DNA of 64,000 nt. Source: Centroberyx gerrardi. Its lineage: Eukaryota > Chordata > Actinopteri > Beryciformes > Berycidae. Each line of letters begins with the position of its first letter. Positions within the stretch are counted from its first letter, which is position 1. Positions 14,911-59,561 of the stretch are shown here, in pieces. Both the position numbers and the translations under genes were made by a program. Location of the stretch: NCBI RefSeq assembly GCF_048128805.1, contig NC_136008.1, positions 16,347,572-16,411,571 of the forward strand, in the 5' to 3' direction. The notes beneath the pieces were generated by a model. The model was given only the letters and a program-made list of their open reading frames with translations, was not told the origin of the DNA and did no database searches.

Positions 14911-15697
14911 TTACATTGCTGATGCTCCGCCGTCATTCTCCTGGAAGACACACATTTGGTGTACTTGTATTAGTCTTAATATGAATTGGTAAAGACAAAA
15001 TGAGGCTTAATCCTCAATATTCTGTCCATTGCTGTTATGTGTCATGGGCAGAAGGTTATAGAGATTTATTTATCTGTACCTGGTCTTGGTCAGCTTCAGA
15101 GTCCGCAGTTATGACAATTCTCTTCTCTACACGAGACTCTGAAGATCCAGTTTTCACTACCTGATAAGAGGGAAGGGAAAAAGGGTTATCAGAGAGGTTG
15201 GAGAGGATAATAAAATAAATAGAAAGCCAGAGAGAGATTGTACTGCTGACCTTGGAGATGTGAGTGGTAGTGGTGGTGACTGTGGTGCCACTAGTGGTTT
15301 CTGAGGTAATGGTACGGGTGCTGGACAGAGTTGTGCCGTCTTTGTCCTCGTCTGTCCCGTCGACTGCCACCTGAGGAGAAGACCAAGCGAGGTTGACTCA
15401 GTAATTAGTTGAGGTGTGGCGCAGTGCTGCCTCGTGCTCAGCTTGGAGCCCCTGGCCTGGTCCTCCCAGACCTGCTTACTCTATATCTATCCCCTCCATG
15501 CAAAATGATGGCGATAGATGGGGGTTGTCCATAGCTAAGACAGATCTGGGCTGAGCAGGCGGCGGAGCCCCTACCTTTGAAGACTCATAGGTGATGGTCT
15601 TGGTCGGGACGATAGGGACCTCTGTGGTGGAGATGTCACTGGATAGGGAGTTGGAGACAGCTGTGATGGTGACTGTCTGGGTCTGCACCAGAGGGGG
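14911..15697 (-). other. epb41: epb41 C-terminal domain exons, with short replacement tail
   Basis: 15697-15575 ([18 protein letters not shown]...[12 protein letters not shown]), 15370-15251 ([20 protein letters not shown]), 15160-15080 ([20 protein letters not shown]) and 14940-14911 (ENDGGASAM then TAA). The first three match the 4.1 CTD that binds NuMA and FKBP13-type partners. In mammalian 4.1 proteins the DHDQ junction is followed by about 22 conserved residues (AIKEAKEQHPDMSVTKVV...). Here a 10-codon exon replaces them, and I saw no conserved version in the sequence down to 13000. Confidence 0.85.
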
Positions 15698-18600
15698 CTG
15701 TGGATGGGAGCATAGCCCCATGAGTGGCTGTGACCAGACACCTCACACCTCTCACAGCAACCATTTTATTTCACACCATGCATTCCCTTATAAGCCATTG
15801 CCTGTGTAAATCAACTCTTACCACAACAGTCGAGTTACTTATTAACTGTTACCATTATTGGGATCAATAATGCTTCCCACCACCAGCTATTATGAAAGGA
15901 AAAGGGAAGCAGAAAATCCCCAAGCCATAAGTGGATTGGATAGAGGATGAAAGTCATGTCAATGTGTCAGAAACAACACTGAGTAGAGAAGAATGTACTA
16001 GTGCTATGGCAACCCGTCACCATAGTTGAGAACTTATCACACCACTATGCAACACCTCTGCAGCATACTGTTACATTCAAACATGCTGATGATGAACATA
16101 ATCCATGCCGCCCACACATAATTCAACTACCTTTACAGATTCAAAGATTAGACGTAGCTTTGTTTTGCTAGTCCTAATGATGCTGCAGAGGGGTGAGCAA
16201 GTGTGCCAGCCACGGAGTCATACAGAGGCCAAGCAGAGACAGAGAATCAGCATCAGCATCACCCTGAGGTGGGGGGTGGGCTACCTGGAAGCAGCGTATG
16301 ACATGGGGACCACCGCTCACGAAATAGGAGGCTGGGGAAGATCCAACTATCCTCCCAGAGTACTCCAACCCAGGATATGAAGCTTCTTCCTCCTGCTCCT
16401 CCTTCAACTGGGTCTCATCTATAGCCGTACTGGACAGGCGGTGGGAGGGAGGCAGCTTTGCCATCTCCACCTCTACGATAGGCACCAAGGAGGTCTCAGA
16501 AACTACACCCTCTTCCTGATCACACGGCTCTGCCACATCAGGGGCATCATGGGCTTCAACACTATCAGGCTCGCTCTTTCGGCTCGCAGTGGGGCTGGGT
16601 ACGCCTGAGAAGCCCAAATTGCTGCTGGTTTCCTCATGTGCAGCCTTAGTGTCTGAACCGTCCCGTGTGGGACTAATGCACAAACTCTAAAAAAGACATA
16701 ACATAGTCACTGTATGATAATGGATAGGTGAAATGTTACTACTGACATAATATGTACAGTAATATGCATTTACATAAATTTTTTATTATGTATGCATATG
16801 AGTTAAATATATATGCGTTTATGTATATAGTATGTATGTATACTTAGTATCCACTTATTAGGTACACCTCCCCATTTACGTAAACAGATCACTCCTCCAG
16901 ATAGTGACCCAGGATTGGTGTGATAAACAAAAAAACGTCGCAGTCCAGTGGCTGAAAGGTGGACCACAAGTATGTAAACACCATGAATCCATGGATCCAT
17001 CCTGCATAGTGTCAACGATAAAGGCAGGTGGTGCTCTAATGGTGTGGGGAATGTTTTTTGGCTGCACATTAGGCAACTTATTACCAATTCAACACAACAA
17101 TTTGAAAGCTACACCAGGTGTTTGAATGCCACACCAGGTGCATCCCTTCATGGCCACAGTCTCCCCTTTTTTAAATTGGTACTTCCAGCAGGATAATGTG
17201 GCATGTCACAAATACATTGTCTGAAGATGGTGACTTTACTTTCCTGCAGCGGCCAGCACAGTCCCCAGATCTCAACCCAATAGAACACCTGAGGTGGATC
17301 GGCATGTTCGCGGCATGAATGTGCCACTGAAAAATCTGCTGAAACTATGTGACACTTTCAAGTCAGCATGGACTGTTTCCAGCACCTTGTTCAGACTGTC
17401 CTGGAGGCAAAAGGGGGTACTACACCTAGATGTACCTAATTAAGTAGATACTGAGTGTGTAGTGCTTGCATATATTTCAGGTATGTACAAGCATGAATGC
17501 CATGCATATGTGTCAGAATGGAATGTTTTTTTTTGGTCTGGATTTTTTTCAAGAGGGAGGGATTGCAAACATGTTGTGCCATTTACACCACTCAGTAGTT
17601 AGCCTTTCATTAATACATAATAAAGATCGCTTCAATGAAACATCTGAAATCTAAATAACAAAATCCAGGCTCCATGAAGGGAACAAACAATCATATGTAC
17701 TGTATATGGAATGCCTTTTATTCTTTTGGTCAAAACTGATTGTCAAAAAGTCATGCATCACGAATCTCTTGCAATTGCTACATAATGCCTTGCCAAATAC
17801 TGGTGAAGGACAAAGGTTAATATGTATTACTATTAAGCTGCCTCAAGGTCTCCGAAAATACTATGTACTGTGACAAAGAATATTGAAAAATTACCCAGTA
17901 ACCAGACTTTATGGAAAAAGATGTCATGTCTTTGATTGCTGTTTTCATGTGCTGAATTCATGTGGTTTCAGGGTCACATGTATATATAAAAAAAACATCA
18001 CAGTGTCACCGATCAGCTAATCCTAAAACAATGTCCTAAGACAACTGACGGCATAAATTTACCTTGAAATGTGTATAAAAGCAGGCTCTAAGTGATATAG
18101 ACAGACATGAAAAAATCTCTAGATAAAAGCCATGTGTGAAGAAATATTGGTAGATGTATCAATGAATAGTCCAACAGACATCACAGAAAATGCGAAAGAG
18201 AAGTGGTTTCATTGTTATTTCCAGTCTTAACCAGTCTTTGGAGAACAGGTCTGTTTCTGGCTGGAGAAACCAAGGACATTTTGCAGTGAAAAGCACAGAG
18301 GAAGTGAAGGTCTAGTTCCACAGAGGCCAGAAAAAAAAACGGGCAGCTTCTCAAGTAGAGCAGAGGAGGATGAGAAAGGAAGGATGTGACAGTGATGTGT
18401 CGCAGAGGAGGCGGAGGAAGGAGAGGAGGAGAAGAGGAAGCTAGAGGTTGATGGGTAGATGACTGGGTGCGGTCTCCACGGCTCACACTCACACCTGTGT
18501 GGGACTTCCGCAGGGTCAGGACGGCCCCTCAGCTGCGTTTGGAGTAGAAGTCTAGGAGGGGGCCGCGCGGGAGGCGGATGACAAACTGAGGGGGGAGGGG

Positions 18601-21600
18601 GAGGAGGGAAGAGAGATGAGAAGGAGGAATTTTGAAATGTCTGCAATGACCGGGAGCGGACTGAAGTTGTAAAAGCCTGAGTTGGGCAATAACAAATTTC
18701 TAAAACTCTTAGTCAGATTTCAGTAGTATGGCTTAAGTGTAACAGAGTCTAGTGTTACTAGCACATGCATTTTAACATGCATTTTTTCCTACAACCCTTG
18801 GTATATTCACTTCACACTTCAGGCTTCGAAAAGGCAGAAAGTCATCCACACTTGTACCTTATTTAAACAAGGGGTGCATTTTGTTTTCCCACAGTTTTTA
18901 AATTGGAAATATCTCAGCTATAGTCAACTGTAAGAGTCAGTACAGCCAGCATGATCTTGGTTTCTTGCCAGTCATATTCACTCTGAAGCTTAAGCAGTAT
19001 GACAAATTGGTTGGTAAATAATTTGAGCTCAAACAGTGACACTTTGTGTCCATGCCACTCAGCAAGAGACATTTGACCAGTGTCAAATAGTTGATCAGTG
19101 ATCGCTCAAATCAAACAGGATGTACTCCAATCAGAACAAAATTAATTCAATTGATTTCAGTACAACTCTAAGGTGCCTTGATGATATACTGTACTTGGAG
19201 ACAATCTGAAAGTGTAAAACTGGTTTCTGTGGGGGTTGTGATTCTAGTCTAGCCATTGAAAAGGTGTCATGTAATCATTACAACATTAACGCCAGTAATG
19301 ATATAATTATACTAGAATTAGAATTGTTCTAGAATCCTGTAATAATTACATGTGTTAGTGTCAATATAGGAAGAGCAGTGTACAGAGCTGACTGAGATAG
19401 TTGTGATACAACTGTGAACGAGGCCTTGTCTCTATGCAGAGAAACAAACCAATGCTTGGAGAAAGCGAGCAGCTTAAGAGTAAAAGCAGCGGGAAAAGAA
19501 AGAGTACAAAGCAAAGAGCATGGAAAGTAGGAGGGAAAAAGCAATGAGGGAGGGAGAGGAGAGGAAGACCGGTGAAATCCACACTCTGCTCAGAGTGAAA
19601 ACGTGCAAAAAGTCAGGAGAGTGGTCTTCACTGGGTCATGCAGTAACCTTTCCATGTCAGGTCTGTTGGTCATGCAATGCATGTAAGGACAAGTCTGGGC
19701 TCAGAGGCATCCTGTGGGTCTAAGATGAACCAACTGGGTGCAGAGAGTGGAGAGCCTGTTCCAAAGACATCTCATCCAAATCACTCTCCAAAGTGAAAAG
19801 ACAGACACTATTCAACAAGTCCAACTGCATTCTTCATACACATGCATGTGTTGCATACCACATGCCGTTACCTTGAATAGGTCTGCACATGCATACAAAA
19901 TCTAATATGCGCAAAATAGCAGAGCACCAAGAATGACAACTGGAAGAGTCTGATCCCCTCTAAAATCTTATTAATTTCTTCAATTTGCATCTTCATCATC
20001 AAAAGAATCAGATCTTATGGGGTGTTACAAAACTGTCCTCAAGGTTCAAGATGACATAGGATTTAAAACTCCAAAATCTTGCTCAAACATGAGACATTAG
20101 TTACAATTTCAGGTTCTTCAGTCCCGTCACAAATGCATGCAGATTGCTCACACTGCAATGCCACATAAACTAAGTGCAGCGATGGTTTCCAATCCAATCC
20201 AATCATCTAAGCAGATGTACAGCCAAAATGGAAAACACAAGATGAGATGAGGTATATAAAAAATCCATTTCAACTATGTCAGCTCAGGAATTAATAAACT
20301 TTATGAGTTATTTGGATTTTTTAAAAATATTTCAATTAAATTGAATCTGTTGTATATTTTACTCCATTTCCTGAACTGACTTAGGATGAAGATATAGGGA
20401 TTTGGTGTCAAGTGGCTGGTGTGGGACACTTACCCCATCTGCACTGGGCAGAGGCTGACCATTGATACCCAGGGTGCGGAATGGAGAGTGTGTGGACAGG
20501 CGCTTGTCCCACTCACTAGGCTTGGTCTCCGGGAGGGCTTCCATGAAGTTCCTCTTCAGCTCACTGATACTGGCATGATGCTTGAGCAGATCCTCCTGAG
20601 GCTTATCGAACTCCTTTACAGAGGAAAGGAGAGAGGAGAGAGAGAGAGTTGGGGGTAGGGTGCAAGGGAGGGGAGGGCGCCCAGTAATTTGAGCAAGGAG
20701 ACATATGGAGCAAAAAGGCCATAAGGGGAGGAAAGATAAAAGGTGAGGGTGAGGGGAGATCCATAGATAGATAGTGGAGGTTGGATGGGGAGGGAAAGGG
20801 AAGTTTAAGGAGATGTTTGTGGTTGGGAGAGAGGGAGAGTAACAAATAGAAGAGAATAAAGAAAGGTGAGATAGAAAAAAAACACGTCAGACCATGGAGC
20901 TTTTCTGCTGCAGTCATAAAATTTGTGTTGATTTATAGCTGATTAAATAAATTATTTAATCAAAGCAGAAGCAGGGTTACTTGGTGCTTTTCTAGACCTC
21001 TGAAAGGTGATGTTATTTACAACGGGCCAGAGCTCAATTGTTCTGGATAGGTTCTGGATAGATTATCATACTGTAGGTTCTCAAAGGATTATCAGCGAAG
21101 CAAATTGGCAAATTAACTCTGGTTGTTGAATCATGAGACCAAACACAGATTCACAAGAGAGAGGACACAGATTCATGAGGAGTCAATGCCATGATTTACA
21201 AAAGTTGATTATTACAGATTATTTTGAGTTCTGGATGGGTAGGGGCTATAAAGTATTACACAGCAAAGCGTTAATGGGTGTATTTCATAGCATTAGGCTA
21301 ACATTAAAAAAACGTGTTGAAAACAGGTTGCAAATCAAACAGCAGCGAGGTAATGTTAGCAGACATGGTGCAAGTTGTCAAAGATGCAGGCCCAGTATGG
21401 ATGGAGACCTTTCTGGTTTGATGGGAATGACAAAAGCAACAACAGAAGCACTGATGTGTTTGGCAACACTTAACACCAAGTTGTTCTTTGTGGACTTAAA
21501 TTAGTAGAGAGCATGGTATTTACACACATACTGAAATGCACGCTCTCAAAGTTATGCTGAATAGAAGTGCAACTGCTTAAATAACGACTGAAGTAATCAC

Positions 21601-24600
21601 AACTTACTATAGTGCTAAAGAGCAACTTCATGCTAAGTGTTTATCAAAATTTCATTAATTTCATACATAACAGCAAAGATGTATGACTGGGCAGAATTGT
21701 TTACATTTACATCCCTACAGTCAAAAGCTTTACTTTGTAGAACTGCAGAGAAAGTTTAATGCACTACAGCCAAGTAAGACAATGAGAAGGAACGAAGATG
21801 GAGAGGGCAGAGCAAAAGCAGGAACAGGAGAATACTGATGATCTGGAAAAACTAAATCATTGATTAAAAATGGAGCTGTTCGTGAATCCTGAGTAGAAAG
21901 GGAAAACCACCTGGAAAAGTTAGCTGAGATAACACTTTAGCTTATCCACCACATAACTGGGCTGATCATTAGGGACACTTTTACAGATGAGGTACAGCAT
22001 CCTCAGGTTTGTGTATATCTGTGCAAGTAAAGGGACCCTGATCCTAATCAATACTTATTTGTTATAGGCTCAACAGCACTCTCCTGAAACAAGTGATTGG
22101 GTTAGAGTTATATTGCCACACAAAAAGAAAACACAAAAAAAAACATCATCAAAGAAATCTACACAGCCAATCAATTATGCTGATGCAAAAACTGTGAATC
22201 ATGCCACATGCAAGCGTGATAATGAACAGCAGCCAGTGAGCCAAAGAGCAAGAAAATACAGCTAGAGACTGAAATCTCCAGAAGGGATACAAACCTCCAA
22301 CATTAAAAGGCTATGTCTGATATAAATTGAGTCACCCTCAATTTTCTTAGCTCTTTTCTGTGAAAAATGAAAGAACAAAAAAAGTGTGGGTTTGTTTTAG
22401 TTTCCTTGTGTGACAGCAGCAAACGGCCACACCTTGGACATGCATTGCTACTCTGTTCACTAAAGTGCTAATACAGTAGACAAGAGGAGTGGAGAAGAGT
22501 CTGCATGCAATATAGTTTGGGGCCAAGTGACCACAGGGACCAAAGACGACACATAACCCCAGGTACGCTAACAAAGCAGGGAACCTGGGGCTCTAGAAGA
22601 TTTCTATTTTTAAAATGAGGGAGAAATAAGAGGTGGTAGCGTGACAGAAACGCGATAAAACAGTAGTTATCATGCCCCTTTTTAGTACGATGCATTTAAT
22701 CCATCATCATGCATGTGCATTCCAGGGTTTACTACAACAGCAAGCAATGAGAAGACATTAATGCCCTGTAAACTTATACTTTTCTCATTTGTTTCTAATA
22801 CAAAACAACAATTACAGTTATAGACTGCTCACATAGTCTATCCATTCTCACATTTGTACCCATTAAAATATATCTGGATTGAACCTGATGTGGATGTCAT
22901 TAAAGACCTAGCGGTATGGGAGCACAACATGAGGAGAGGGTGAGATTAGTCTGTTGGATGAGAGGCTCGGTGTTATCAGAATGGGGGTGGAGAGATGACT
23001 ATGGAAACACGCCTGAAATACCAGACGAAGAATCTGACCTTGCGCATTCGCACCACCTCCGTGCTCGTCTCCTCAGACTGGTGTTACCCCAGGGAGGAGA
23101 GAGAAGCACACATGTTAGCATCCTCTGCTCGTTGGCTTCAACATTCACAGTTTAGCCATAGTGGAAACCAGTGCACTGAGTGGCGACATGCATGAGGCCA
23201 GTGTCTGACACCAACCTGAAGCTTAATGTCCCCATTGACGGTGGGTATCAGCGTAGAGGCTACTTCGCTCTGGTCCCTCCCCACTGCTGGCTACAGCAGC
23301 AAGAGAGACACAGAATGAAGTGTTTACATTCGAAGAGTTTCCATTAACTATAATCAAAATGCTCATGCGATCAGTAAGAGGACGCATGAATTAACTGACA
23401 ATTCTATTGCACTGGCACCAGCTGTCCTAATAGGCAGAGAAGGTCTACACATATATGATGCTACCCTTTTCTTGAACATCTAATTTTACACTTTCACTGA
23501 AATTATGTGACAAAATAGTCTGTTTCAGATAGTGATTAGAGAGCTTCAATACCTTGACCTCAGCCACACCCTCGGTTTTTGAGGGCTCCACAGCTTCTAT
23601 AGTGACCTCCAGCTTCCTTTCCTCCTGGCGGCTGGTCTTGATAGGAGTGGAGGTCTGGGGCTGGTCCAGGGCCATGGGGATCCCTGCCTCTGCCAGGGCA
23701 GCCTGGGAGAAGACGGGGGCACTGACCGGACGGGTGCCCCTGTGTGTGCCCACCACTGGACAAAACACAGATAAAATGGAAGTGTGAATGAAAGGCAGTG
23801 TACTTCAGCACAGTTGGTAGGGTGAGATAGTATGCACATTTGAGATCACTCACGAAAGCATAAATGCAAACAGCCACACCATACTTACAGTCAGTCTCAA
23901 GCCTTGATGTGATCATATAAGTGCACCGACTGCAGGAGTATACTATACCTTCATTGCTTAGTTCATTCTGATCTAAAATGAGCAGCACGCGGCAAAACTT
24001 GATGTGAGCCGGAAGCGAATATCCACAATGTGGAATGAGAGCAAAAGCGTGGTTATTTGTTCTTGCTACCATCCAATGATGGATGCAAAGGCAGATGTTG
24101 TTAGACTGGATTGAGATGTTGAAATGTTGAGATAAAGAAAGCGCAATTTCTTCAGTATGCAAAAGCATGATGAGAGATCCATGAACAATGCTGAACATGC
24201 ATTCCCATCTCCGGACACATCCTCTTCTGAAGAGAAGTCAGGGTATATTACAATAAGGCGGCAAGGTTTTGACTTGATGTTAGTACGGTTTCCATGGAGC
24301 CAAAAAAAGCATGACCATGTGTTAGCTTGTTCATCTGAAAGAAAAGACAAACCAGAACAGGCGAAAATACCTGACTCCTTGAGGTCAACATCGAGCAGAA
24401 CAAACCAATCATCGTCTCTATGTGTTGGTGGATGTCTCTCCTCCAGGATTCTCTTCTCAAACAGCGGTCTCCTCTCTGGCATAGCAATCCTTGTTTTGGC
24501 CTGAATGGGTGGAACTTTGACCGCAGGTCTTACTTCTGGGTAGAACTGGATGCGCTCATGGACAGCAACTAACAGAAATACACAACCATTCTCAAGTGAT

Positions 24601-27600
24601 ACTGTGCAAATAAAACTTTGTACAAAATATTAAGACCACCTGATCTTCCAGTGAAATAGACTGACCAACTGAATTTAGATAATAGCTGATAAAAGACAGA
24701 TAAAAGCGCTGTCGAGACTTGAGTGCAAATCAATATTAGGAGGGTAGCTCTAATGTTACATAATCGTTTAACATTGAAAACCATACTCATGATATCAAAA
24801 AGTGAATATTTACTGTGCATTATTCCAATTTAAGTATGTTGGTATTCACAAATAAACCACATATCTCCGACAATCAAGAGAATTCTAGCACAATAATCAT
24901 GGTGGATTGAATCTTAGGATGGTGATGGTACCTGATTTCTTAGGGGCCACATCCAGGAGAATAAACCAGTCATCTTCCACCTCTCTCAGTGGCTGAGGCG
25001 GTCTCTGCTGTAGGATCTTTTCCTGTTGCCACATCTCCTCCACTATAGTAACTCTCTTCTGTGCTCTCTGCTCTACGGCTGCGAACTCTTTAGAGGGTTT
25101 TACCTCAGGATACATGTGGACACGTTCAGCCACAGCCACTGAGGCAGAGCACACACAAAGAAAAAAAATCAAACTTATAATCAACCTTTGCCATTCACTG
25201 AAATGCAATAAGTTATTGTCATCTGGGCTTAAGCTGTTATCCGATAGCTAAAACCAATCATCTCCTTCCACTTTCTCTATCAGACAGTGTTTTCCCCATT
25301 ATGATCGCTTACTGATGTCTCTCCTCCACTATCACCTTCTCCTGCTGCCTAGTCTCCTACACAGTTGTGAATTTATGTGGTATCTGCTTAATAGCCTCTG
25401 CAGCTACTGGGAGCACTGAAACAACCAAACAGCAACCATAAACCTAATAATATACGATATGGTTTCTGAATATTTGACTAGGAGACTGTTAAAATGTGTG
25501 TAAAAGAACTTAATCTATCCTCAAATCCTACACCTTTATTGAAAGGCATTTTTAAGGCCTTTATTGTAAATAAAAGTGTGCTTATGACTTTGTTTTTAAA
25601 TCATCCTGCCTGGTTAAAACCAAGGTTAAACAGATTAGTTGATCATAATAGACATTTGCAGCTCTAAGGCAAATATCAGCACCATGTTATTCTGTCACAC
25701 AAAAACAGAGCCAAGTTACCAAAGGAATACATACATAAAGCAACAGCCAGACATAAAACGGTGAATACCTGGTACTTTAGCGGCAACATCTAGTAGCACA
25801 AACCAGTCATCATCCACCTCTCTTGGTTGTGGTGGCTTAATCTCCACTAACACCGCAGGTGGTTTCACATCTTCCACTAGGACCTTTTGTTTTGGCTCAA
25901 TGGCTGCCACCACATCCTGAATACGCTCAGCCAATGCAACTGACACAGAAGAATATGGGTAATTAAAATGCGATGCAACCTCAACATTGGAAGCAACTGA
26001 AAAATGATGTAAGAATTTATTACTGATACAGCCATTTCAACTTAAAAGCAAACCAAAAAGCATCAGCTGTTCAGGACAGTTTGTTTGCTAGCCATGTGTC
26101 ACACCACTTGAACAAGCCTATTAGCAGGGGGAGAGGTGAGTTTACAGGGGAGTGTACAGAGACCCTTTGGTAATGAAAGGTACCTGGTGGTATGACAACA
26201 GGCTTTTCACGGATGATGTCGAACACGACAAACCAATCATCTCCTTCTTCTCTTTCTGACGGCGGTGCCATTTGGACCTGTTTAATTTCAGACAGACGTG
26301 TCTCATCTTGCCCGCTGTCCGCACCAATTATCACCTTCTTCCATGTTCTAGTCTCTGTGGTCATCACGTCAACCACAAAGGTCTTGCTCACATCCTGAAT
26401 AAGCTCAACAGGAGCAACTGGCACAGAGAGAGAGAGTGTCAAAGGAACTGAGGGACGCTATACATATCCATGAAACAAATGTTAAGCTTGACAAGAAAAG
26501 CTGGTTAAAAGTTGAGCCAACGTAGCAATGGACATATCGTAAGTGTGGCGGAAGATGACACATTTCAGGGTAAATTATGGTAACAATGGTGATGCAACTG
26601 ATGCCATAAAAGATATACCTGGAGGTACTACGACTGCCTTCTCACGCACAGCCTCAAACAGCACAAACCAGTCATCATCTCTCTCAGGCAGTGGCTGGGA
26701 CAGCTGCTGTCTAATCTGCTCCAGCACAACCGGTTTCGGTTTCTGCTCTATGGTTTTCACTTCAATTACAGGTCGGAGGACATCTGGATAAACTTGGCTC
26801 GGTACTGCCAGAGAAACTGAAAACAAACAGGATTCATACTTCAGCCAGAGCGGAAAGTGCGACAGAAGCCATACATTTTGATTGGGCCAACAACGGATGC
26901 CGTCTTTGGTTAGTTTACTTAACACAAAATTAATTTCTATTTTAAGTTTGGTTTATTTTGGTGTGATAGGATGGGGGGAAAGAAGAGGAAGTTTAGATGG
27001 TAGTAAGTACCTGGAGGTGAATAGGACACTTCTCTGGGAATAACATCCAGCAGCACAAACCAGTCATCATCTCTCTCCCTCACTGGCTGGGATATTTTCT
27101 GCTCTGGAATAATCTGCTTGGGATGCCTCTTGTCCTCTTTCTGCACCATGATCTCTTCAACTGTTACCTCCTTCCTGGACTCTACTGTTATCACTTCAAC
27201 CACAGTAGAGATGCTTTCTTCTGGATAAACCTGAACATACTCCCCCCTGGTGACTAATGACAGAGACAGAATCCTAAGACACGAGAGCCAAAAAGGTGAC
27301 AAATAACCATTTAAGTGTTCATGGTGGAACTGAGAAGCAACACTGGGGGAATTCAGCAATACCTGGTGGCACAAATGATGGTTCTCTAGGGGAAACATCC
27401 AGAAGCACAAACCAGTCATCTTCTATCTCTTTCACAGGCTGAGGCGGTGCTATTTCTCGCTTGGGACTCAGATCTTGTTTCATCTGTGTGTCTTCTACTA
27501 CAACCTCCATTCTTTTCTCTCTCTGTTTGATTGTTGTCATTTCAACCAGAGTGACACGCTCTTCTGGACGCACTTGAACACGCTCCACAACAGCAACTAA

Positions 27601-30600
27601 CACAAAAGAGATAAAAATCCTCAGACATTAGAAACTATAGAGGTGCTTTAAGAATATGAGCATCTGCAAAGCTCAAGGGAGCTGCTTATGATTTGGTGGA
27701 GCTGTGAAGCAGCATGAGGGATTTTAGCAGTACCTGGTGGCACATAAGATGTTTCTCTGGGAACAACGTCCAACAGCACAAACCAGTCATCATCTCTCTC
27801 TCTCACTGGCTGTTGTGGAATTTCTTGTAAGTATCTTGGTTCCTCTTCTCTTATCTTTATCTCTTCTACTATGACTTCCATTCTCTCCTCATCTGCTGTA
27901 ATGTCAACCTCAGAGGCAAAAACCTCTGCATCCATCTGGCCACGTTCCTTCAAGGTAACTGATACAAATAAAGTCAAGAAACAAAATATTTTAACACAAA
28001 CGGCAACACAAAGTGCCATAACACTGGCAACCATGTACAATGCAAGGCAGTAGGGATTCAATGCTGTTTTGAAAAGCAGCATGAGGGATTACAGCAGTAC
28101 CTGGTGGCACATAAGATGTTTCCCTGGGAACAACATCCAGCAACACAAACCAGTCATCATCTCTTTCTCTGACGGTCTGTGGTGGTGGGATCTCTGGTAC
28201 ACGTCTTTCTTCCTCTTCGCTTATTTTTATCTCTTCCACTATGTCGTCCCTTTTCTCCACAACTGTTGTAATTTCAATCTTTGAGGTGAAATGTTCTCCT
28301 GCATCCATCTGAGCACGTTCCACCATGGCAACTGATATGACGAGAGTGAAGAAACAGAACCCTTGAACATGGGAGGAAACATGCAGTACTACAAAGCTGA
28401 CAAGAAGCAGCATTGGGAAGGGGGAGCGGGGGGTGGAAAGCTGATTGCAGAGGCATACTGTACCTGGTGGTTTGAAAACAGCCTTATATGGAGAGCGGTC
28501 AAAAAGTATGAACCAGACATCCTTGTGATCCTCAGCCGGACGCCCCTGTATAACTTCTCTCTCAATTCTCTCCTCCAGTAATTCTGTTTTACGCCATATC
28601 TCCTCTTTTTCTAACCTCTCCTCGGATATCAGACCAGGTTGCACCTGCTCCTCTTCCATATCTTCCTGTTGCTGCCATCTCTCCTCTACAATAGTGACTC
28701 TCTTCTTACCCCTGCGCTCCACCCTTTGGACCGCTACAGAGGTGGTGCTGGTGGCATCTAAAGAGCCAGACTTCAACTTCTCCTCAACCTCCTCTTGCCA
28801 TTCCTTTTCCATCTGCCGTAGCCTCTCTCTCAGTCCATCGTCTTTCAGACTCTCATCGATCACTTCTTTCTTACTCTCCTCCTCCTCCTTTCCCTCTTCT
28901 TCTTCTTCAGGCAACAAGCCCTTTAAAAACACCTGCTTTATTTGCTCTTCCAATTCATCCACTTCATCCTCCTCATGTGCCTGTGCCTGTACCTCCTTCA
29001 CTGATCTTTCCACCACTGTCTCTACTATATTTCTGATTTGTTTCCTCTCTTTCTCTGAGAAGTCTCCCTCTTCCTGACTTATCTTAACAATGTCCTCTTT
29101 CCCCAATTCCTCCTCTATTGCTTCCTGGATTCTCTCTGCCAGCTCGTCCACTTCCTGGAGCCTCCCCTCTAGAACCCTCACTTCCCTGAGCCTCTTTTCC
29201 AAAACCTCAGCCTCTTTCAGCTTGTCTACCAAGGTCACTGTTTCCTGTAGCCTCTCAATGACCTCCGCATCGGTCTGTTCCTGCTCTGCCGCACTCTCGC
29301 CTTGCTCATCCATCTCCTGGCGCTGGAGCTGAGCTGGGGGAGAGACTGGGAGGAGCAGAGTAGAGAGTGCTGAGTAGAGTAAAACTATGAGAGGAACTAA
29401 AACGGGTTACGTATTGTAAGCTGTTTAAGTGCTTTCTTACTAGCTGTATTCATCACAACATAAGATGATTTCACATCACAGAGAAAGGTAGTCACATTTC
29501 CACACAAATATATTCCAAGTCTCGCAAAGAAACTCACATGGAGGTGTGGTGAAGGTTTGGTCAAGGTACTGGAACCAATCATCTTGCTGTTTCAGGACTG
29601 GCTTCAATAGCCTGTCCACAGAGCTCATTTTTGCATAGCTGAGCTTAGCTGACAACATCAGAGAAACAATTCTGTAACTCTTTCACACCAGATGAGCATA
29701 CACAGCAAACTGCAAACAGCGGAAAACACAGGGTACAATAGCTCCTACATAAGCATAGGTCTATTTCTTTTGAGGATAATGCAGCATAGGTGTAGTGAGC
29801 AAAATGTGGATAGACACCAGCAGGTGTTACAACGGCAGATACCTGGTTTTTTCACATAATCAAATGATGGGACAAAGGGAAGAGAAGGATGACGATGGAC
29901 CAGGACAAACCAATCGTCTTCCTTTCTCGCCTGCTGTTGCTCATCAGATGCCAGTCCCTGCCACTGCTGACTGACAGACTGGGTGAAGGTATGAGAGGCA
30001 GTCTGGTCTGTCTCAGTCTCCTGCCAGGTTACTGAGTCTGTCTGAATATACTGCCCCTCCTCCCAGGACTGTGTGAATGTCTGCACAGACTCCCCTCTGG
30101 CTGTGGAGAGATGACGAGGTGATGGCTGTTATGTCACGGTTCTGCTGGAGAGATGAAGGCAACACTTCGCAGCGCTTTAGGCGGGTTTCTGACCAAGCCA
30201 GATGCCAAGCAATTGTACGGTACGATTGCACCAGACCACTCTGAGTCCAGTAAGCTGAGGTTAGCACAAAGCTGAATGAAAGATGCCGCAACAAGCCTCT
30301 TTGATCTGCACGGTCTATTTAGCACACACATCAAATCCTTCAGAACAAGGAAGAAGAGAAGGGCAAAATGTGCCTATTGATTTTTTTGACGGTTCAAAGG
30401 TCGTTTATCTTATGTTTCATGGCAGCCATCAGAACAGTCATGAGTGAGTGAGTCAGTCAAGATGTTGCACATAAATAGTTACAAGCATAGGGGCAACTGA
30501 AACCCGGTGTGCAACACACATGAAGCAGCAACTTCTTAAAATGCAAAAAAAAAAGGAAGAACAGCTGTCTCAAGATTGGAAATGCACATGTGTAGATATA

Positions 30601-33600
30601 TGCGTGATGTGTAAATAAATTCCTCTTTTCTCTGTCATGGTGTCCAAAGTTACCCTGGGATCATGCCAGGGAAAGTACAAGGTGGGTGTCATCATCCACG
30701 GTTCAGATTAGTTCGCTCTCCTGATAAGTTAAACATCTGTGCTGCAGTTGAAAGCCAATGTCTTCAAGCGTTATGGGTATGAAAGCAAATGAACCTGAGT
30801 GGATGGTTGTTTAATCCGCAGTGAAGCAAATGAACCTGAGCGGACGGTTATGTTAAATGCAATAAGGCTGTTAGCAAGCCAGAATAAAATAAATGTGGTA
30901 AGTATGCCAAAAAGCGTTGATGTGGCTCCACACATTTCCTGGTACCTGACAGTTCTGGAGAAGGCGCTGGTTTGTCAGATTCCAGCATCAGGAACCAATC
31001 ATCCACCTCAGACCTGTTTGAGACTGAGAGTTGTTGCAGGAACTGGAGAGTATCATCTCCAGCTGCAAGAGCGGGACAAGTTAGAGAAGAGCTGATCTGG
31101 AGGCTGTGCATTTATTTAAAGACACCAACCACCAACACACATAACACATGCTCACACACTTACGCATACTTCCGTCTAGGTTACGGGACAGCCGCTTGCT
31201 GGCAGAGCGTGTGAAGCGTGGGGCTGGGCGGTCAATCATGGAGCTGGCCTGGCGGGTCTGGGCCTGGGTGCGCCCGCTGTACCGGAACTTAGAGCCCAGG
31301 ACAAGGAAGCGACGCGAAGAGGGGGGCTCTACTGTTGAAACCCTGCGGGACACACACACACACACACACACACACAGACTAATTTAATTTTCAACCATCG
31401 AGCATTTAATCAATTTAAAAGAAAAATCTGTCTCCATGGGGGGGGTTCAGAGACAATCTCATCAAAGCGGCAGCCCCACATATCAGGAGTTCAAGTTGGT
31501 CTTGTAAATTCCACTCAGGTCGCGTGTGACTCAATGTCACAAGTCATTTTGCATTCCTCGCAAATGGCCAATGTCATGTAACATGATTAGTGACAACTTT
31601 GACCCCTGACTTATTGTGTATAAAAAAATTTCAAGGTTTAATCGAGTTCAGGGCCATGGGCATGTGGCTTTTCCTTTGTGGTTAAACTGCCACGTAGACA
31701 ATATAATTACTCTGAGAGGCTAAGCTGCAGTGACCAGTGAGCCAATTATCTAGGGGGATGGGGGATCTGTTGCCAGGCAGGGAAGCGATGTCCATTCAGG
31801 GCAGAGTAAGAGTGACCTATCCTCACCTGAAGAAGGTATGGTGTTCAACAGAAACCTTCCACAGCTTCTTAGAGGCTTTGTAGTTGGGCAGTTTGAAGCC
31901 AATTGTGCTCTCATACTGCTCTTGCTGTAGGTGAAGAAAAGAATATAAAGTGTAATTTTATTCACAATTAAAATATTGAAAAACTTTCGGCATGGAAATA
32001 TTGTCATATCCAACCAACTAAGATATAATCGACGAGGTATGCGCTATCATTAAAAACGAACTGCAGTTTCTATTCTACAGTCTGAATTGAATTAACTAAA
32101 AGTGGATTAACTCCAGTCCTACTGACTGAGCAAAAAGACAAGAGAAATAGGATAATTCAAAGACAGAGAAGACTTAACAGAAACTGTAATTTTTAAATTT
32201 ACCTCTGATGGTCGGATCTTGATGAAGAAGCTGCTGCGTTTGTAAGAGATCTTGAGCACTTTGGGCCAAGGGAAACGGTTGATCCTCAACTTGTCCTTGT
32301 AAACCATCAGACCACTAGAGCAAACCCCCAGCATAATGTCAACACCCTCCAGATCCTGCGTGCACACACCAAAAAAAAAAGTGTTTAAAAAAAAATAAAA
32401 GCTCTTTAAAAAAACAGCATTGCACACCATTTATCTGATAGTTTTCACTTGCAGAAGATAGTCACTAGGAGGCAGACTTTCCCACACTTTGAGGCCATGG
32501 ATTTTCAAATTTCATTTATCTCTCCTTTTTTACTGAACAGGGGCTGACATCAATTTTGTAATTAAAATCTGGATGCTTCTGATGTTATACAAGCTTGCTG
32601 TTACCAAATCATGTAATGCATTTTAAAAATGAAAGGTAGTCACTGTCAACACAGACTTAGGTACTCCCAGAATTACTATGGTCCCTTCTCTGATAGCATT
32701 TCAGAATTTAAATAGAAAACTTGCGCCCACAGTTAACCCACACAGTATTAATCCAAATAGGTTACATGACGCACACAAAACCCTACCTTAGCTTGGTGTA
32801 TGTCCACTCCATACATAGCGAGTTTCTTGGCATTTTCCAGAAACAACATATCTGCTTGGGCTGGACTCATTGACCTGGACACATAAAGATGAGAAGGGAA
32901 AGAAAGAGTGTTAACATCAGAGATATGTTTTATGACCAAGATCATTTGAAGGGCTTTTTAAAAAATCATCTCTTCAAGCAGTTTTACAAACCCCAAACAT
33001 ATAGAAGCCCTTCACAATTTGGATCTTCTGAATGGTGCTTACTCAAATCTGACCCTGTTCTTATCTAGCAAGCCTTTCAAGCAGAGATCGCCATGAACAA
33101 CTTGCACAATGCAACATGGTGTTAAAGTGCATTACTCTGGTCCCTGCCCACTCCCCTGGGCTTACCTGTATGTGCGGTGCAGCTCCATCACCTTCTCCTC
33201 CAGCTCTTTGCTCTGTCCGGGGGCCAAGCTCAGCTCCTTGACGTAGTCCGCTCCGTGGAGCTCTGGGTCGTACTCTCCCAGCTCCGACTGGGCTGTGTAG
33301 GAGCCCAGCAGGGACAGCGTGACGAAGGAGCAGGGCAGGACACCACGCATGATGTCCTTCCTCAGCTGGAGACACAGATAGTACCTGCAGGAGGAGTGAG
33401 GAGAAAGAGGTTCACTTCAAAAACTTCATACTGTTCTTCATCCGTGATAATACATGGTGTGACTGAGTATGTAGCGACAAGAGGAGCATCCGCTGTAATG
33501 GCAGAGACACTGACCTGGTGAGGTCTTCAGTGAGCTGCACTGGATCAGGTGGGTAGAACTTCACGTTGAATGTAAACTCATAGACGGCACCTGAAACCTG

Positions 33601-36600
33601 TTTCCGGATCTCTTTGGTGAAGTCCAACCATGTCTGTGGAGCACAAACATGGGTTGAAAATTAAACCTATGCCAACCAATTTCTTCTCAGTGTGGCAAAA
33701 CTACTTTGTGTGTAGGGATGTAACGGTATACCGTTTTAAGGTATACCGCGGTATCAAGCAACCACAGTTCTGAACCGTAAGCCTTTCCCTGTAATACCGT
33801 GCCCACGGTATAAATTTATGTTCCGCAATGCACATATGCACAGCGCAACATGCCACTACAATGGAAGGTTACCTATCCACAGCTCCGCTCGTGACAACCA
33901 GGGGAAAAAATGAAACATCACACTTCAAGTTGCTAGCAATATTGAATTGCAACAGTGGACTTTGTAATTTAATATACATTATTAAACTGCACTAGATTAC
34001 AAGATTGTTGTGTGTATTTTCCGTCTTTAATGCAAAATAAAACTATCCTATGTTGCACTGCAGGGCACTAGAACATTAACGTTATCTCACTAAGGAGGAC
34101 CCTTGCGTTAAATATTTTTATGTAAATGTTACAATGCTAATGCATGAGAGTTTCAGTTAAATACACACAGACACACACACAGGCACGCACACACGTTTCA
34201 ATTCAATAAAGCAATATTTTTCTTCAAAGCAAAATACTTGTTTGTTTTTTTCGATGGGCCATAGTACGTTTAATTAAAAGGGGGAAAAAAATTTATACCG
34301 TGAAATACCGTGTACAGTGGTATTTTGGTAGATACCGTACCGTACTGTGAAATTTCATACCGTTACATCCCTATTTGTGTGTCATGTAAAATGTCTGGTT
34401 ATGTTTTTGTACAGTGACTAGAATTAAGTAGGTATAGAGCAGAAGAACTAGCCTACCTTGCTGGTTGGGGTTGCCCAGTTGGCCAGGGCAAAGTAATCTT
34501 TCTCCATCAGGTTGAGGTGGTCACACACCTTTGTAAACAGTTCCTGGCCTTTAGCATGTTTCTGAATGAGAGACAGAGAGACAGATAGAGAGAGACAGAG
34601 AGAGACAAAGAGCTTGTTCAGTCCTCATAACCAGATCCCAGATGAACTAGGATGATAGCCATTACACAAACAGAAGAGAAGGGAACAGAACTTGGGAAGT
34701 CTCTTACATCAAGCTCGCACTCAAACTGAGCCTCATCCAGTAAGGTGACTTTGCACTGCATGGTTTTCTGTCGTTTGGAGGGTTTCTCCTCTTCTGCTTT
34801 CTTCTCAGTCTTCTTTTCTTTTTTAGGCTTCTCCGTTTTTTCCTCCACCTTTGTCTTCTCCTTTGTCTTCTCCTTTGTCTTCTCCTTTGTCTTCTCCTTT
34901 GTCTTCTCCTTTGCCTCCTCCTTTGCCTTCTCCTCTTTTTTCTCTGTGTCCTCCTTCTGCCCCTCTTCCACCGCGGGCTCTGGCTTTATCTCAGCTTCTT
35001 TCTGCTGGTCCTCTTGAGCTGGCTAGGTGAGTGAAGACAGACATTTGAAAAGCATGTGAAGTAAATGACAAAGATGCGGGACTTACTTCATTTGATAACA
35101 GTGCCTGCATTATCCTGAATACGCATCGATAAATACGCTCTCACTAACAACAAATGTGTTTCATGTAGGCTACTGCTGTTCAGAAGGACTCTAGATCTTT
35201 CAGTTCAGACCAGCATAGATAATTTTTGTTTTTGACCAAGCTTTCACATCTGACCAGCATAGTTACTTTCGCTGAGCAAGCAGCCCGCAAAATAAAAAAT
35301 TCATCAGAAGAAAAAGAAAAAAAAACATGGACCCGAAGCAACAATAAAGCAGATCCAAGCCGTGTGTTCCTCTAGTACAGTCCAATCTGCAGTGTGAACC
35401 TGTGCACAGCAATGCTCTGTTTTTGGCTGCATCTCTGGGTCAAATGACCGCCGGTCCCTGCCAAAAAATGAGAACAGTGTTTCCCATTTTTCTCAAAACC
35501 CAGTGTCCCAGCCTTCGCCTGTTTCGCAGTTTACTCCTTTGGCTCCTTTGCTCATCTGAGAATCTACGTGTGTTTACCCTAATGTCTCAAAGCCATATTA
35601 CTTACTCATATACTTAAATCTGTGCTGTATTCAGACACACCCGTGAGTAAGTCTAATATTTGTCCATGTCACACACTCACCTGAGTCTCGGCGCTGCTTA
35701 GCGAGTGCTGATCAGGAGCCTGTTCAGTCTCCAGCTCCGTTTTCAGCTCAGGCTCTGGAGCAGCGATGGGCGCCTTCACCTGCTCCTCACTGGGCCCTTT
35801 CGCCTCCTTCTTTCCTTTATTCTTCCCCTTTTCTTTTTTCTTCCCCTTCTCCTCTTCCTGCTTCCCCTTTTCCTCTTTCGGTTCTACCTTTTCCTCTTTC
35901 TCCTTCTTTTCCTCCTCTTTATCCTTCTCTTTCTTTTTTGCCTCCTCTTTTACCTTCTCTTCTTTTTTTGCCTCTTTTGGTGTCTCCTCTTCTCTCTTTT
36001 TTGCCTTCTCCTCTTTCTCTTTTTCCTCTTCCCTCTTTTTGGTCTTCTCCTCCTCTTTCTTCTTGGATTTTTCTGCGTCTCTCGCCTTTTCCTCTTCTTT
36101 CTTCTTTGCTTTCTCTTCTTCTCTCTTTTTTACTTTTTCCTCTTCCTCTGCTTTCCTCTTTGCTTTTTCCTCTTCCTTCTTCTTTGCTTTATCCTCCTTT
36201 TCTTTTTTCTTTGACACCTTCTTGTCAACCTTTTCTTCTTCTTTACTCTCCTTTGCTACTTCTGGCTTCTTGTCTTTCACTTCAGCGGCCTCCTCCTGAT
36301 CCCCTTCTTTTGTCTCTAATTTTTCCTCCCCCTTTTCTACTGTCTGCTGTGCCTTCTCCTCCTTTTCCTCCTCTTTCTTCTTTTCCTTTTCCTCTCCTTT
36401 TTCTTCCTCTTTCTTTTTCACCCTCTCCTCATCCTTTTCCTCTGCTTTCTTCTTAGCTTCTTTCTTTTTCTTCTTACTGCCTCTCTTCTCAACTTTTTCT
36501 TCCTCTTTTTTCTTCTCCTCTTTTGGTTCCACTTTCTCCTCCTCGCTCTTTTTCACTTCTTTTACCTCGACTTTTTCTTCCTCTGCTTTGGCCTCTTTCT

Positions 36601-37003
36601 CCTCCTCCTCCTTCACCTCTTCTACCTTTTCCTCCTCTTCCTTGTGTACTTTTTCCTCTTTGTCCTCCTTTTCCTCCCTGGCTTTCTCTGCCTCAAACCC
36701 CTCTCCCTCTGAGCACTGTGAGCGGCGCTTGAGGAAGTTGGAGAAGAGGCGAGACAGGCCTTTGCCCGCAGAGGTCCGGGTACGAGGCTTCAGCTGCTCC
36801 TCCTCGGGGGAGGTAGCGCCGTCGGCAGGCCCGGGCTCGGAGGCCTGTTCTCGGGCCTTCTTGCTCGACTGCCCCCCCTCCGGCTCGGACGCCGCCGCCG
36901 CGGGCTTCTGCTTGTTCTCTGGTTCGGGCTCGGGCTGGGCTCCGCTGGCCTTCTGCTTGCCCTCAGTGTCTGCCTCGCTCACCGCACTTGCCTCTGTTGT
37001 CAT
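14911..37003 (-). CDS. epb41: Protein 4.1 (erythrocyte membrane protein band 4.1, 4.1R), expanded
   Basis: A multi-exon minus-strand gene linking spectrin-actin to membrane proteins. It is identified as 4.1R rather than 4.1N/G/B by the headpiece blocks MTTE, LSRLF.NFLKR and [13 protein letters not shown], then [13 protein letters not shown]. The SAB and C-terminal blocks [18 protein letters not shown] and [11 protein letters not shown] also match. Coding exons in order: 37003-35681, 35022-34708, 34561-34457, 33633-33515, 33384-33166, 32874-32787, 32355-32203, 31924-31827, 31342-31164, then the repeat-exon array 31062-24371, then 23755-23553, 23290-23216, 23077-23039, 20613-20434, 16686-16285, 15697-15575, 15370-15251, 15160-15080 and 14940-14911 (TAA). 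Three departures from the mammalian protein stand out: a very large headpiece exon, the exon array between FERM-adjacent and SAB regions, and an altered C-terminus. Which exons are used together cannot be told from DNA. Confidence 0.93.
16285..16686 (-). other. epb41: epb41 variable-region exon (134 codons)
   Basis: Starts after TTTTTTAG with [16 protein letters not shown] and ends PHVIRCFQ at a GTAGCC donor. Phase 0 at both ends, with an open frame of 402 bases. Acidic and Ser/Pro-rich, it sits where 4.1 proteins have a poorly conserved, often alternatively spliced region between SAB and C-terminal domains. Confidence 0.7.
16835..17462 (+). mobile_element. Decayed Tc1/mariner-family DNA transposon in epb41 intron
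   Basis: Terminal inverted repeats: the left end (16850-16868) is AGTATCCACTTATTAGGTA, and the reverse complement of the right end reads CAGTATCTACTTAATTAGGT. Inside, on the plus strand, lie Tc1-like transposase blocks: [36 protein letters not shown] and [12 protein letters not shown], the last holding the third catalytic region. The frame is broken by stops and shifts and the 5' part of the gene is missing, so the copy is dead. Length is about 630 bases. Confidence 0.85.
17463..20433. other. epb41 intron sequence
   Basis: Apart from the candidate exon at 18495-18585 nothing recognisable was found. The Pro-rich minus frame near 18227-18646 comes from purine/pyrimidine-biased intron DNA. Confidence 0.4.
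18495..18585 (-). other. epb41: Possible alternative epb41 exon with early stop
   Basis: An acceptor (CCTCAG) is followed by an open stretch [18 protein letters not shown] and a TGA at 18531-18529, then a good donor (CACACAG|GTGTGAGT) at 18495. At 91 bases it would shift frame and stop. If used it would give a protein ending soon after the SAB domain, or mark the transcript for decay. It is supported by splice-site-like ends and GC content only. Confidence 0.35.
20434..20613 (-). other. epb41: epb41 spectrin-actin-binding (SAB) exon
   Basis: Encodes [20 protein letters not shown], then [20 protein letters not shown], then [13 protein letters not shown], the counterpart of human exon 17 of 4.1R. 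It is phase 0 at both ends. Human exon 16 (a 21-residue exon with the GENIYIRHSNLMLE block) should lie between 23039 and 20613; I read that intron on the minus strand and did not see it. Confidence 0.9.
20640..23038. other. epb41 intron between SAB exons
   Basis: Contains a purine-rich tract (20619-20875) and otherwise no exon I could support. This is the interval searched for exon 16. Confidence 0.4.
23039..23755 (-). other. epb41: epb41 exons between array and SAB domain
   Basis: Three exons. 23755-23553 has [12 protein letters not shown], matching human RPTSAPAITQ, enters in phase 1 and leaves in phase 0. 23290-23216 ends [11 protein letters not shown], matching human VPTSNGDQTQ. 23077-23039 is a 13-codon micro-exon [13 protein letters not shown], matching human EKTEDLIRMRK. 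They show that the array sits exactly between two otherwise conserved neighbours. Confidence 0.88.
25250..25417 (-). pseudogene. Decayed copy of an epb41 DDWF repeat exon
   Basis: Lies between the intact exons 25939-25769 and 25138-24932. It keeps the acceptor (TTTCAG), the order of the unit (a V.AAEAI-like start, a QQEKVIVEE block and an altered WF-motif region near 'aaccaatcatctccttcc') but has in-frame stops. It therefore looks like a dead duplicate cassette, useful as evidence that the array grows and loses exons. Confidence 0.6.
28464..29333 (-). other. epb41: epb41 long repeat exon with coiled-coil extension
   Basis: An 870-base, 290-residue member of the array. Its last third is a normal unit ([15 protein letters not shown] ... 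DVWFILFDR ... VFKPPG), closest to the exon at 25138-24932 ([13 protein letters not shown]). Ahead of that is a charged, heptad-like region ([20 protein letters not shown], then [20 protein letters not shown]) expected to form a coiled coil. The Asp-Asp of the motif is Asp-Val here. Phase 1 at both ends. Confidence 0.85.
31164..31342 (-). other. epb41: epb41 FERM-adjacent (FA) exon
   Basis: Encodes [19 protein letters not shown], then [21 protein letters not shown], the FERM-adjacent regulatory segment with PKA/PKC-type serine sites (RSAS, KRLS). It ends in phase 1 with ATG C at the donor GTAAGT. In the human protein the equivalent exon is followed directly by the RPTSAP exon; here the whole DWF exon array intervenes. 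Confidence 0.9.
31350..31377. repeat. (AC)n microsatellite
   Basis: About 13 CA repeats immediately upstream, on the minus strand, of the FA exon acceptor. Confidence 0.9.
31827..34561 (-). other. epb41: epb41 FERM domain exons
   Basis: Seven exons (34561-34457, 33633-33515, 33384-33166, 32874-32787, 32355-32203, 31924-31827, plus the FERM entry in the preceding exon) encode the three-lobed membrane-binding module. Visible signatures are [96 protein letters not shown] and [13 protein letters not shown]. These are near-identical to vertebrate 4.1 proteins, where the domain binds glycophorin C, band 3, p55 and calmodulin. No break seen. Confidence 0.95.
33713..34373. mobile_element. hAT-type MITE with intact 8-bp target duplication
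   Basis: Terminal inverted repeats TAGGGATGTAACGGTAT at 33713 and its complement ATACCGTTACATCCCTA ending at 34373. Flanks are TTTGTGTG at 33705-33712 and TTTGTGTG at 34374-34381, a perfect 8-base target site duplication, the hallmark of hAT elements. The 661-base interior has many subterminal GGTATACCG-like motifs and no transposase frame. It lies in the epb41 intron between FERM exons 34561-34457 and 33633-33515. Confidence 0.92.
34708..35022 (-). other. epb41: epb41 exon with downstream start and FERM entry
   Basis: Encodes the PAQE headpiece continuation, a 12-base minisatellite giving repeated KEKT, and the first FERM strand [18 protein letters not shown]. The Met at 34761-34759 (context AAACCATGC) is the counterpart of the downstream AUG of mammalian 4.1R, which gives the 80-kDa erythroid form when the upstream start exon is skipped. 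The exon is phase 0 at both ends. Confidence 0.85.
34849..34912. repeat. epb41: 12-bp coding minisatellite (KEKT repeats)
   Basis: About five copies of TTTGTCTTCTCC on the plus strand, read on the minus strand as Lys-Glu-Lys-Thr. The unit is a multiple of three, so copy-number change keeps the frame. Confidence 0.9.
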
Positions 37004-54600: not shown

Positions 54601-55092
54601 GCCATCGACATCTTCAACTTCATGTCTGACAAGGAGGAGGACTACAGCACCGTCATCAAGGAGATCGGAGAGTCGGCGAGGAAGCTATCCGACAGCATTG
54701 GTCGCTCCAAGAGTTGCAGCGACATCTTGACGACTCACCTCCTGACTCTGGATCACTCTCCGCGGCAGAGACGCAGACTCAGCATCAGCGAAGTGTTCAT
54801 CAACGCAAAGGCGGAGCTGGACCCAGCTGAAGAGGAGGAGGGCCTTTCTCTCATCCAGGACAGCAGTGGAGACTCTGAACCAGCAGAATGTCTGAGGATG
54901 GGTTTTGTAGAGGAGGAGGAGGAGGACAGCTGTGCATTTGACTCAGAAAAAGATTGCCTCATCAGCGGTGGACCTAACGAAGATATCCAAGATAAGGAAA
55001 GTGTCCAGCATCCTGATGGTGGGGAGACTAGGTTTACCATATCCAAGGTAGTGGAGGAGGATTTGATCAGGGATACAGACGAAAAAGGGTAA
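51610..55092 (+). CDS. kcnk5: Two-pore-domain potassium channel, TASK-2 type
   Basis: Five exons: 51610-51795, 52651-52762, 53162-53328, 53699-53867 and 54383-55092 (TAA), about 447 residues. The start MADKGPLLTSCIIFYLSIGA is membrane segment M1. The first pore selectivity filter is TTIGYGN (split by intron 2) and the second is TTVGFGD. M4 is YMGLAWLSLFFSW, followed by HKVLKKRRQR. The C-terminal block DIFNFMSDKEEDYSTVIKEI matches the KCNK5-specific NIFSFLSKKEE segment, which separates it from KCNK16/17. The protein is a background K+ channel; in mammals it is alkaline-activated and works in kidney and chemosensing neurons. The tail is shorter than in human (499 residues) and acidic. Teleosts have two kcnk5 copies; which one this is cannot be told here. 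Confidence 0.93.
53935..54290. mobile_element. Widespread teleost hAT-like MITE in kcnk5 intron 4
   Basis: Begins 'gactgcaactaacaactaca', with 'attttgtcgattaatcattt' and 'agtctataaaatgtcaaaaa' after it, and ends 'aaatttggactaatcgatta' then 'atcgacaaatc'. These blocks (GCAACTAACGATTA, TCTATAAAATGTC, AGCCCATAGTGATGTCTT) are typical of a very common fish MITE whose ends are rich in CGATTAAT. There is no coding frame. Confidence 0.75.

Positions 55093-55548: not shown

Positions 55549-59561
<4,013 letters not shown>

Follow-up and report, generated by a model that had tools for sequence, protein, structure and literature searches.

A candidate splice-tunable array of thirteen DDWF-motif exons in one of two apparent EPB41 genes of Centroberyx gerrardi

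Protein 4.1R is the textbook linker of the membrane skeleton. Here we describe an array of 13 exons, each encoding a motif of the DDWF type, within an EPB41-like gene on the minus strand of a 64,000-nucleotide stretch of DNA (the window) from the fish Centroberyx gerrardi (assembly GCF_048128805.1, contig NC_136008.1, positions 16,347,572 to 16,411,571). There are several known proteins with which such an array can be compared. In giant ankyrins, as in this gene, a membrane-skeleton adaptor is extended by extra coding sequence between its anchoring domains; giant ankyrins have a single giant exon, whereas the array has 13 repeated cassettes, and the likeness drawn is one of layout. In the tail of FAM21 a short acidic-aromatic motif recurs many times (the LFa repeats), and the PEVK region of titin is encoded by runs of in-frame cassette exons. 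The array can be likened to the former for its motif copies and to the latter for its in-frame cassettes, and no sequence relation to either is claimed.

Camelid 4.1R is, according to the available text of PMC9926112, 30 residues longer than human 4.1R80 by virtue of exon-13 and exon-14 sequence adjoining the spectrin-actin-binding (SAB) region; these approximately 30 added residues accompany stiffer, elliptic red cells, and formation of the spectrin-actin complex is easier for human 4.1R that includes the exon-14 peptide. As described there, camelid 4.1R90, with its exon-14 cassette and PE repeat, resembles what is proposed here for the array, i.e., a species-specific, alternatively spliced, repeat-rich lengthening of 4.1R between its membrane-binding and spectrin-actin-binding parts. 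Unlike the array, it comprises 30 residues without a motif array and lies nearer to SAB (exons 13 and 14), whereas the array comprises up to 1103 residues and lies ahead of the exon that encodes RPVSAP.

Ligands of the Atg8 family bind through an LC3-interacting region (LIR), which, in the available parts of PMC5119064, PMC7615515 and PMC8727931, is like the array motif in having acidic residues before an aromatic one, a hydrophobic residue at +3 and no predicted fold. An example is FAM134B, which carries DDFELL (PMC9251429, available text), and giant ankyrins also have an LIR (PMC8727931, available text). The array motif is unlike these in that it has F at +1, falls outside the cLIR and xLIR expressions and probably has no helix-forming tail after the core, and its binding is putative. 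The available text of a review of 4.1 proteins names the headpiece, FERM, FA, SAB and C-terminal domain (CTD) and no such array (PMC10887211), and nothing array-like appears in the accessible parts of a zebrafish 4.1B paper (PMC6171929) or of a carp splicing paper on epb41l3b (PMC8867607). No description of a DDWF exon array was found in the literature as far as its text was available, although automated protein models may already contain the exons.

In this genome, the constrained in-frame exon array was found at a single place, in one of its two apparent EPB41 genes. The reading we consider probable is that it is a splice-tunable cassette array, which would add to one of the two proteins a multivalent linear-motif loop of up to ~1,100 residues with 13 copies of D-[D/V]-W-F-x-x-[LFV]-[DEH]. 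Confined to one gene copy of two, an extension by as many as 1,103 residues with 13 constrained motifs would be a natural experiment for which the second copy serves as the control. If the exons are spliced as predicted, the choice of exons would set the number of motifs, and whatever binds DDWF would be a new ligand of 4.1R.

The exon array and its predicted splicing

The 13 array exons extend from 31062 to 24371 on the minus strand and are located, exactly where the first-pass annotation of this DNA had placed them, between the FA exon (31342-31164) and the RPVSAP exon (23755-23553). In all 13, the length is a multiple of 3, the phase is 1-1, the acceptor is AG, the donor is GT and the frame is open. 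In the direction of transcription they are E1 (30946..31062, with the motif DDWFLMLE), E2 (29843..30100, DDWFVLVH), E3 (29538..29648, DDWFQYLD), E4 (28464..29345, DVWFILFD), E5 (28101..28331, DDWFVLLD), E6 (27734..27958, DDWFVLLD), E7 (27363..27596, DDWFVLLD), E8 (27011..27253, DDWFVLLD), E9 (26619..26816, DDWFVLFE), E10 (26184..26417, DDWFVVFD), E11 (25769..25939, DDWFVLLD), E13 (24932..25138, DDWFILLD) and E14 (24371..24568, DDWFVLLD), all on the minus strand. E4 is the longest at 882 nt, most of which is charged spacer followed by the motif. Upstream of E11, at 25996-25940 on the minus strand, there is an AG after which the sequence stays open in the phase of E11; this exon may therefore have an alternative upstream acceptor.

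The summed coding sequence of the array is 1103 residues, of which 36% are K, R, E or D. The earlier estimate of about 1,000 codons was slightly low. The array exons had also been described as each terminating in a D-D-W-F core; this core is present in 12 of 13, E4 having D-V-W-F, and it sits near the 3′ end of the exon rather than at it, with 10-21 residues following W-F.

Between E11 and E13 on the minus strand there is a dead fourteenth copy (E12psi, about 25223..25415, its ends being of our choosing), which the first-pass annotation did not list. It retains an acceptor and the codons for DDWF, but its frame is broken by stop codons, the DDWF itself being directly followed by one, and the chosen end lacks a GT. 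This dead copy is evidence for birth and death of array exons. The introns within the array are 84-363 nt long, with the exception of the first (845 nt), when the dead copy is counted as an exon. Just after E5, E6 and E7 the intron sequences remain similar, which implies that duplication carried intron sequence as well as exons. A tree of 10 array exons pairs E5 with E6 and E9 with E10, with only one of seven inner branches above both support limits.

Since the FA exon ends in phase 1, the RPVSAP exon starts in phase 1 and the array exons are 1-1, the frame is kept whichever array exons are included, even if none is, and a direct splice from FA to RPVSAP is possible. Any subset of exons could be skipped with the frame intact, so that splicing could set the valency of the array. 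The agreement of phase and frame with FA and RPVSAP at both ends also bears on the proposal that full-length 4.1R does not include the array exons and that these are used in a transcript of their own or from an internal promoter; given that agreement, we hold this to be very unlikely. On a simple donor matrix, 12 of the 13 array donors score between -0.4 and 2.0 and are without G at +5 (E3 scores 5.0), and the donors of six FERM exons score 3.8-7.4. The weak array donors may be taken as a hint, and only a hint, of regulated splicing.

Constraint on the motif

Aligned on the tryptophan (W, position 0), which all 13 copies share, the motif always has F next to it at +1 and D at -2. Position -1 is D in 12 copies (V in E4), position +2 is V, I or L in 12 copies (Q in E3), and position +3 is L in 10 copies and otherwise M, Y or V. 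Position +4 is L, F or V and position +5 is D, E or H in the 13 copies, and 7 of them have proline at +8. With at most one mismatch, the pattern GAYGAYTGGTTY has 15 occurrences in the window, where 2.1 would be expected and 100 shuffles gave a maximum of 6, which rules out a chance motif; 14 of the 15 occurrences are the 13 array exons and the dead copy.

The ratio of non-synonymous to synonymous substitution (dN/dS) was estimated from Nei-Gojobori counts combined for every pairing of nine copies (E5-E11, E13 and E14), with the bootstrap taken over the same nine. It is 0.05 (bootstrap 0.005-0.126) at the eight motif codons and 0.39 (bootstrap 0.31-0.47) at the other codons, being 0.38 upstream and 0.44 downstream of the motif, both below 1; although such ratios are rough, the contrast between the motif and the rest is large. 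When a window of 8 codons is slid along E5 in comparison with the 13 copies, the minimum in the proportion of non-synonymous differences, 0.13 against a median of 0.49, falls exactly on DDWFVLLD. The proposal that frames stay open while exon middles diverge is borne out in 13 of 13 exons, and that of strongest selection on the motif by the same comparison among copies inside one genome; a ratio near one between related species had been named as grounds for abandoning the idea, and between the copies of this genome no such ratio is found. The view that the array is a decaying relic, out of use, could draw on the one plainly dead copy among 14; the other 13 are open with AG and GT after a divergence between copies of dS about 1.5, and this, together with the low ratios both in the motif and outside it, makes a relic hardly credible.

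No fold is predicted for the array sequence, as would be the case for an array of linear motifs. With E8 as the first row of a 10-row alignment, AlphaFold2 gives a mean predicted local distance difference test score (pLDDT) of 56 and a predicted template modelling score of 0.13; the last three blocks, which contain the motif, have the highest pLDDT (67-72). Known Pfam domains were rejected, as E8 matches no family and the three matches of E4 are all under the cut-off, and so was a solved structural relative, the best match in the PDB having an E of 0.81. What a motif array calls for, i.e., a repeated constrained motif within sequence without a predicted fold, is found here to the extent that 10 rows allow. 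The charged composition and the lack of a predicted fold would also suit a spacer, entropic or elastic, by which the membrane and spectrin-actin are linked over a greater length, with W-F as a weak self-sticker and no dedicated partner, as would the charged headpiece of this gene, which is likewise expanded. Such a spacer has no need of an eight-residue core held at so low a dN/dS in every copy, and we regard it as rather improbable.

Several points weigh against a splice-tunable motif array. It is known from the genomic DNA of one species alone; the dN/dS values compare copies mutually, at proportions of synonymous differences of 0.6-0.87, which is near saturation; the fold prediction comes from a shallow alignment and shows no more than the lack of a predicted fold; and the donors of FA, RPVSAP and one SAB exon are also weak (0.4-0.7 on the same donor matrix).

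Occurrence in the genome and an apparent second EPB41

The genome to which the window belongs (778.9 Mb in 278 contigs) was searched for further copies. The DNA pattern GAYGAYTGGTTYRTNYTNYTNGA, which fits 8 of the 13 copies, has 8 exact matches, all in the array (the backward control has 1); the E5 protein has 7 matches at E <= 1, all inside the window; and the E1 protein matches only itself. By these three queries a further array at another place in this genome is rejected, the other 11 exons not having been searched genome-wide. A pattern search of viral contigs gave 67 matches, none of them a relative.

The FA exon has matches in 7 places, which correspond to this gene and six other 4.1 genes. 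In the 30 kb from FA onward of these six no array-type exon was seen in the readable sequence, one stretch (C59) containing 10,200 N. A scan of the same six stretches for [DE][DEV]W[FLYW] gave four matches, in frames of 18-77 codons, which were judged to be chance from the printed lines alone. Comparison of the 13 array exons with the six stretches by tblastn gave low-complexity or weak matches only; E4 also matched the headpiece and the paralogues, which was treated as low complexity.

One of the six genes (C19) has an RPVSAP-type exon ~10 kb past FA, a SAB piece that is nearest in form to that of the array gene, and headpiece landmarks in common with it. On these three features it is apparently a second EPB41, and the pair would be a product of the fish genome doubling. 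The headpiece exon of the apparent second EPB41 encodes ~103 residues, versus 441 codons in the array gene. Thus, the gene copy with the long array also has the long headpiece, which suggests that the same copy of EPB41 grew in two places. Two candidate sister exons in the apparent second EPB41 were rejected: 'EPDWFYYW', ~2.6 kb past FA, was judged to be chance and is followed by a pyrimidine repeat, and 'KIDWFAML' lies in a frame of 24 codons.

In human EPB41, the FA and RPVSAP-type exons are adjacent in the protein. The first-pass annotation accordingly took the array to be an addition to EPB41. In its favour, the apparent second EPB41 runs from FA to its RPVSAP-type exon with no array exon found; this means that the array was either gained here or lost there.

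Proposed working and candidate partners

From its sequence, a plausible mechanism for the array can be proposed. The insert would be placed between the membrane-binding (FERM/FA) and spectrin-actin-binding parts of protein 4.1R. FERM and SAB would hold the protein at spectrin-actin junctions, while the floppy loop would present many copies of a sticker to one partner pocket, with an avidity that would grow with the count of array exons spliced in. Multivalent binding and splice tuning are both what we infer from this arrangement.

The known motif class found to lie nearest is the LIR of Atg8-family ligands, although the array motif is not filed as an LIR, and an Atg8-family protein (GABARAP or LC3) is the best specific guess for the partner, if a tentative one. 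In such a complex, W would enter the first pocket of the Atg8-family protein and the residue at +3 the second. A scoring matrix was rebuilt from the 27 verified hexapeptides of PMC5119064, in the part available, and correlates at 0.85 with the scores printed there. On this matrix DDWFVL scores 19.5, and 11 of 13 copies score at least 17 in the W register (E3 13.0, E4 15.9); the leave-one-out median of the 27 verified LIRs is 16, and 0.08% of shuffled-array hexapeptides reach 17. A looser LIR pattern fits 13 of 13 copies. According to the available text of PMC7615515, binding to GABARAP also depends crucially on acidic residues at -1 and -2, and three LIRs without LC3 binding acquired it when given I, L, V or F at +2. 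In the array, D is present at both -1 and -2 in 12 of 13 copies and I, L or V at +2 in 12 of 13.

Against an LIR stand the absence of cLIR or xLIR matches in any of the 13 copies in either register, a residue other than I, L or V at +3 in two copies (M or Y), and the presence of F at +1 in every copy and the conservation at +4 and +5, which an LIR leaves unexplained. In addition, a loose nuclear-receptor-box pattern of our own making fits 11 of 13 copies, so the hydrophobic core is not specific. A helix after the core, of the kind described in the available text of PMC8727931, is unlikely in the array because of the proline at +8 in 7 of 13 copies. A more far-reaching account would have one EPB41 copy become, after gene doubling, a giant 4.1R with a K/E-rich headpiece and 13 in-frame LIR-like cassettes, turning the membrane skeleton into a splice-tunable and multivalent docking line for membranes bearing GABARAP or LC3 through a W-F variant core outside the published expressions; we consider this doubtful.

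The chief alternative to an LIR-like partner is one internal to the skeleton. The motif would then bind spectrin, ankyrin, p55 or the C-lobe of a FERM domain, be it that of its own 4.1R or of a neighbour, and the array would be an autoinhibitory or cross-linking loop rather than recruit a partner from outside. Its location between FERM/FA and SAB would suit this, as does the modulation of FERM binding by the 4.1R headpiece reported in the available text of PMC3166722; such binding is purely putative in this analysis, and the proposal seems unlikely.

Other motif classes were tried and rejected. The expressions for a SUMO-interacting motif and for the clathrin box, L-h-x-h-[DE], fit 2 and 1 of the 13 copies, respectively, and FFAT and kinesin-type motifs fit none. 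A PPG ligand for GYF domains was rejected because its G needs intron read-through, the spliced codon being V.

The identification of the host gene as EPB41-like, made at first pass, agrees with tblastn using human EPB41 as the query and with Pfam FA, FERM_C and 4_1_CTD, all above cut-off. The RPVSAP exon, the form of SAB and the headpiece landmarks point to EPB41 over L1, L2 and L3; a tree of eight 4.1 sequences over 105 columns leaves four of five inner branches open and EPB41 unseparated from L2 and L3. All parts of the gene are on the minus strand. The headpiece (U1) coding exon extends from ATG to donor at 35681..37003, its end being set from CAG/gtgagt in the sequence; its 441 codons start with MTTE, 252 of them are E or K, and it retains what we take to be two landmarks of the human EPB41 headpiece. 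In the exon after it (open frame 35022-34618), a run of KTKE repeats precedes MQCKVTLLD. FERM is encoded in seven tblastn pieces (31826..34758, same query), with Pfam FERM_C in 32203-32358. The FA exon (31164..31342), which has the phase 1 end, is supported by Pfam FA at 2.1e-20 and by tblastn, and the RPVSAP exon (23553..23755), which has the phase 1 start, by tblastn with the same query. Two SAB pieces at 22295..22360 (22 residues) and 20434..20619 were found by tblastn, as were the CTD exons at 15068..15697, where Pfam 4_1_CTD matches 15077-15193 at 1.6e-07. Between the SAB and CTD exons there is an open frame of 170 codons (16174-16686), perhaps a U3 exon.

Elsewhere in the window, a frame at 54298-55089 on the plus strand resembles the potassium channel TASK2 (KCNK5-like, PDB E 4.6e-27), a frame at 55710-56102 on the minus strand contains a piece of paraoxonase (PDB E 3e-12), and two exons at 4723-5545 on the minus strand encode immunoglobulin V-set domains.

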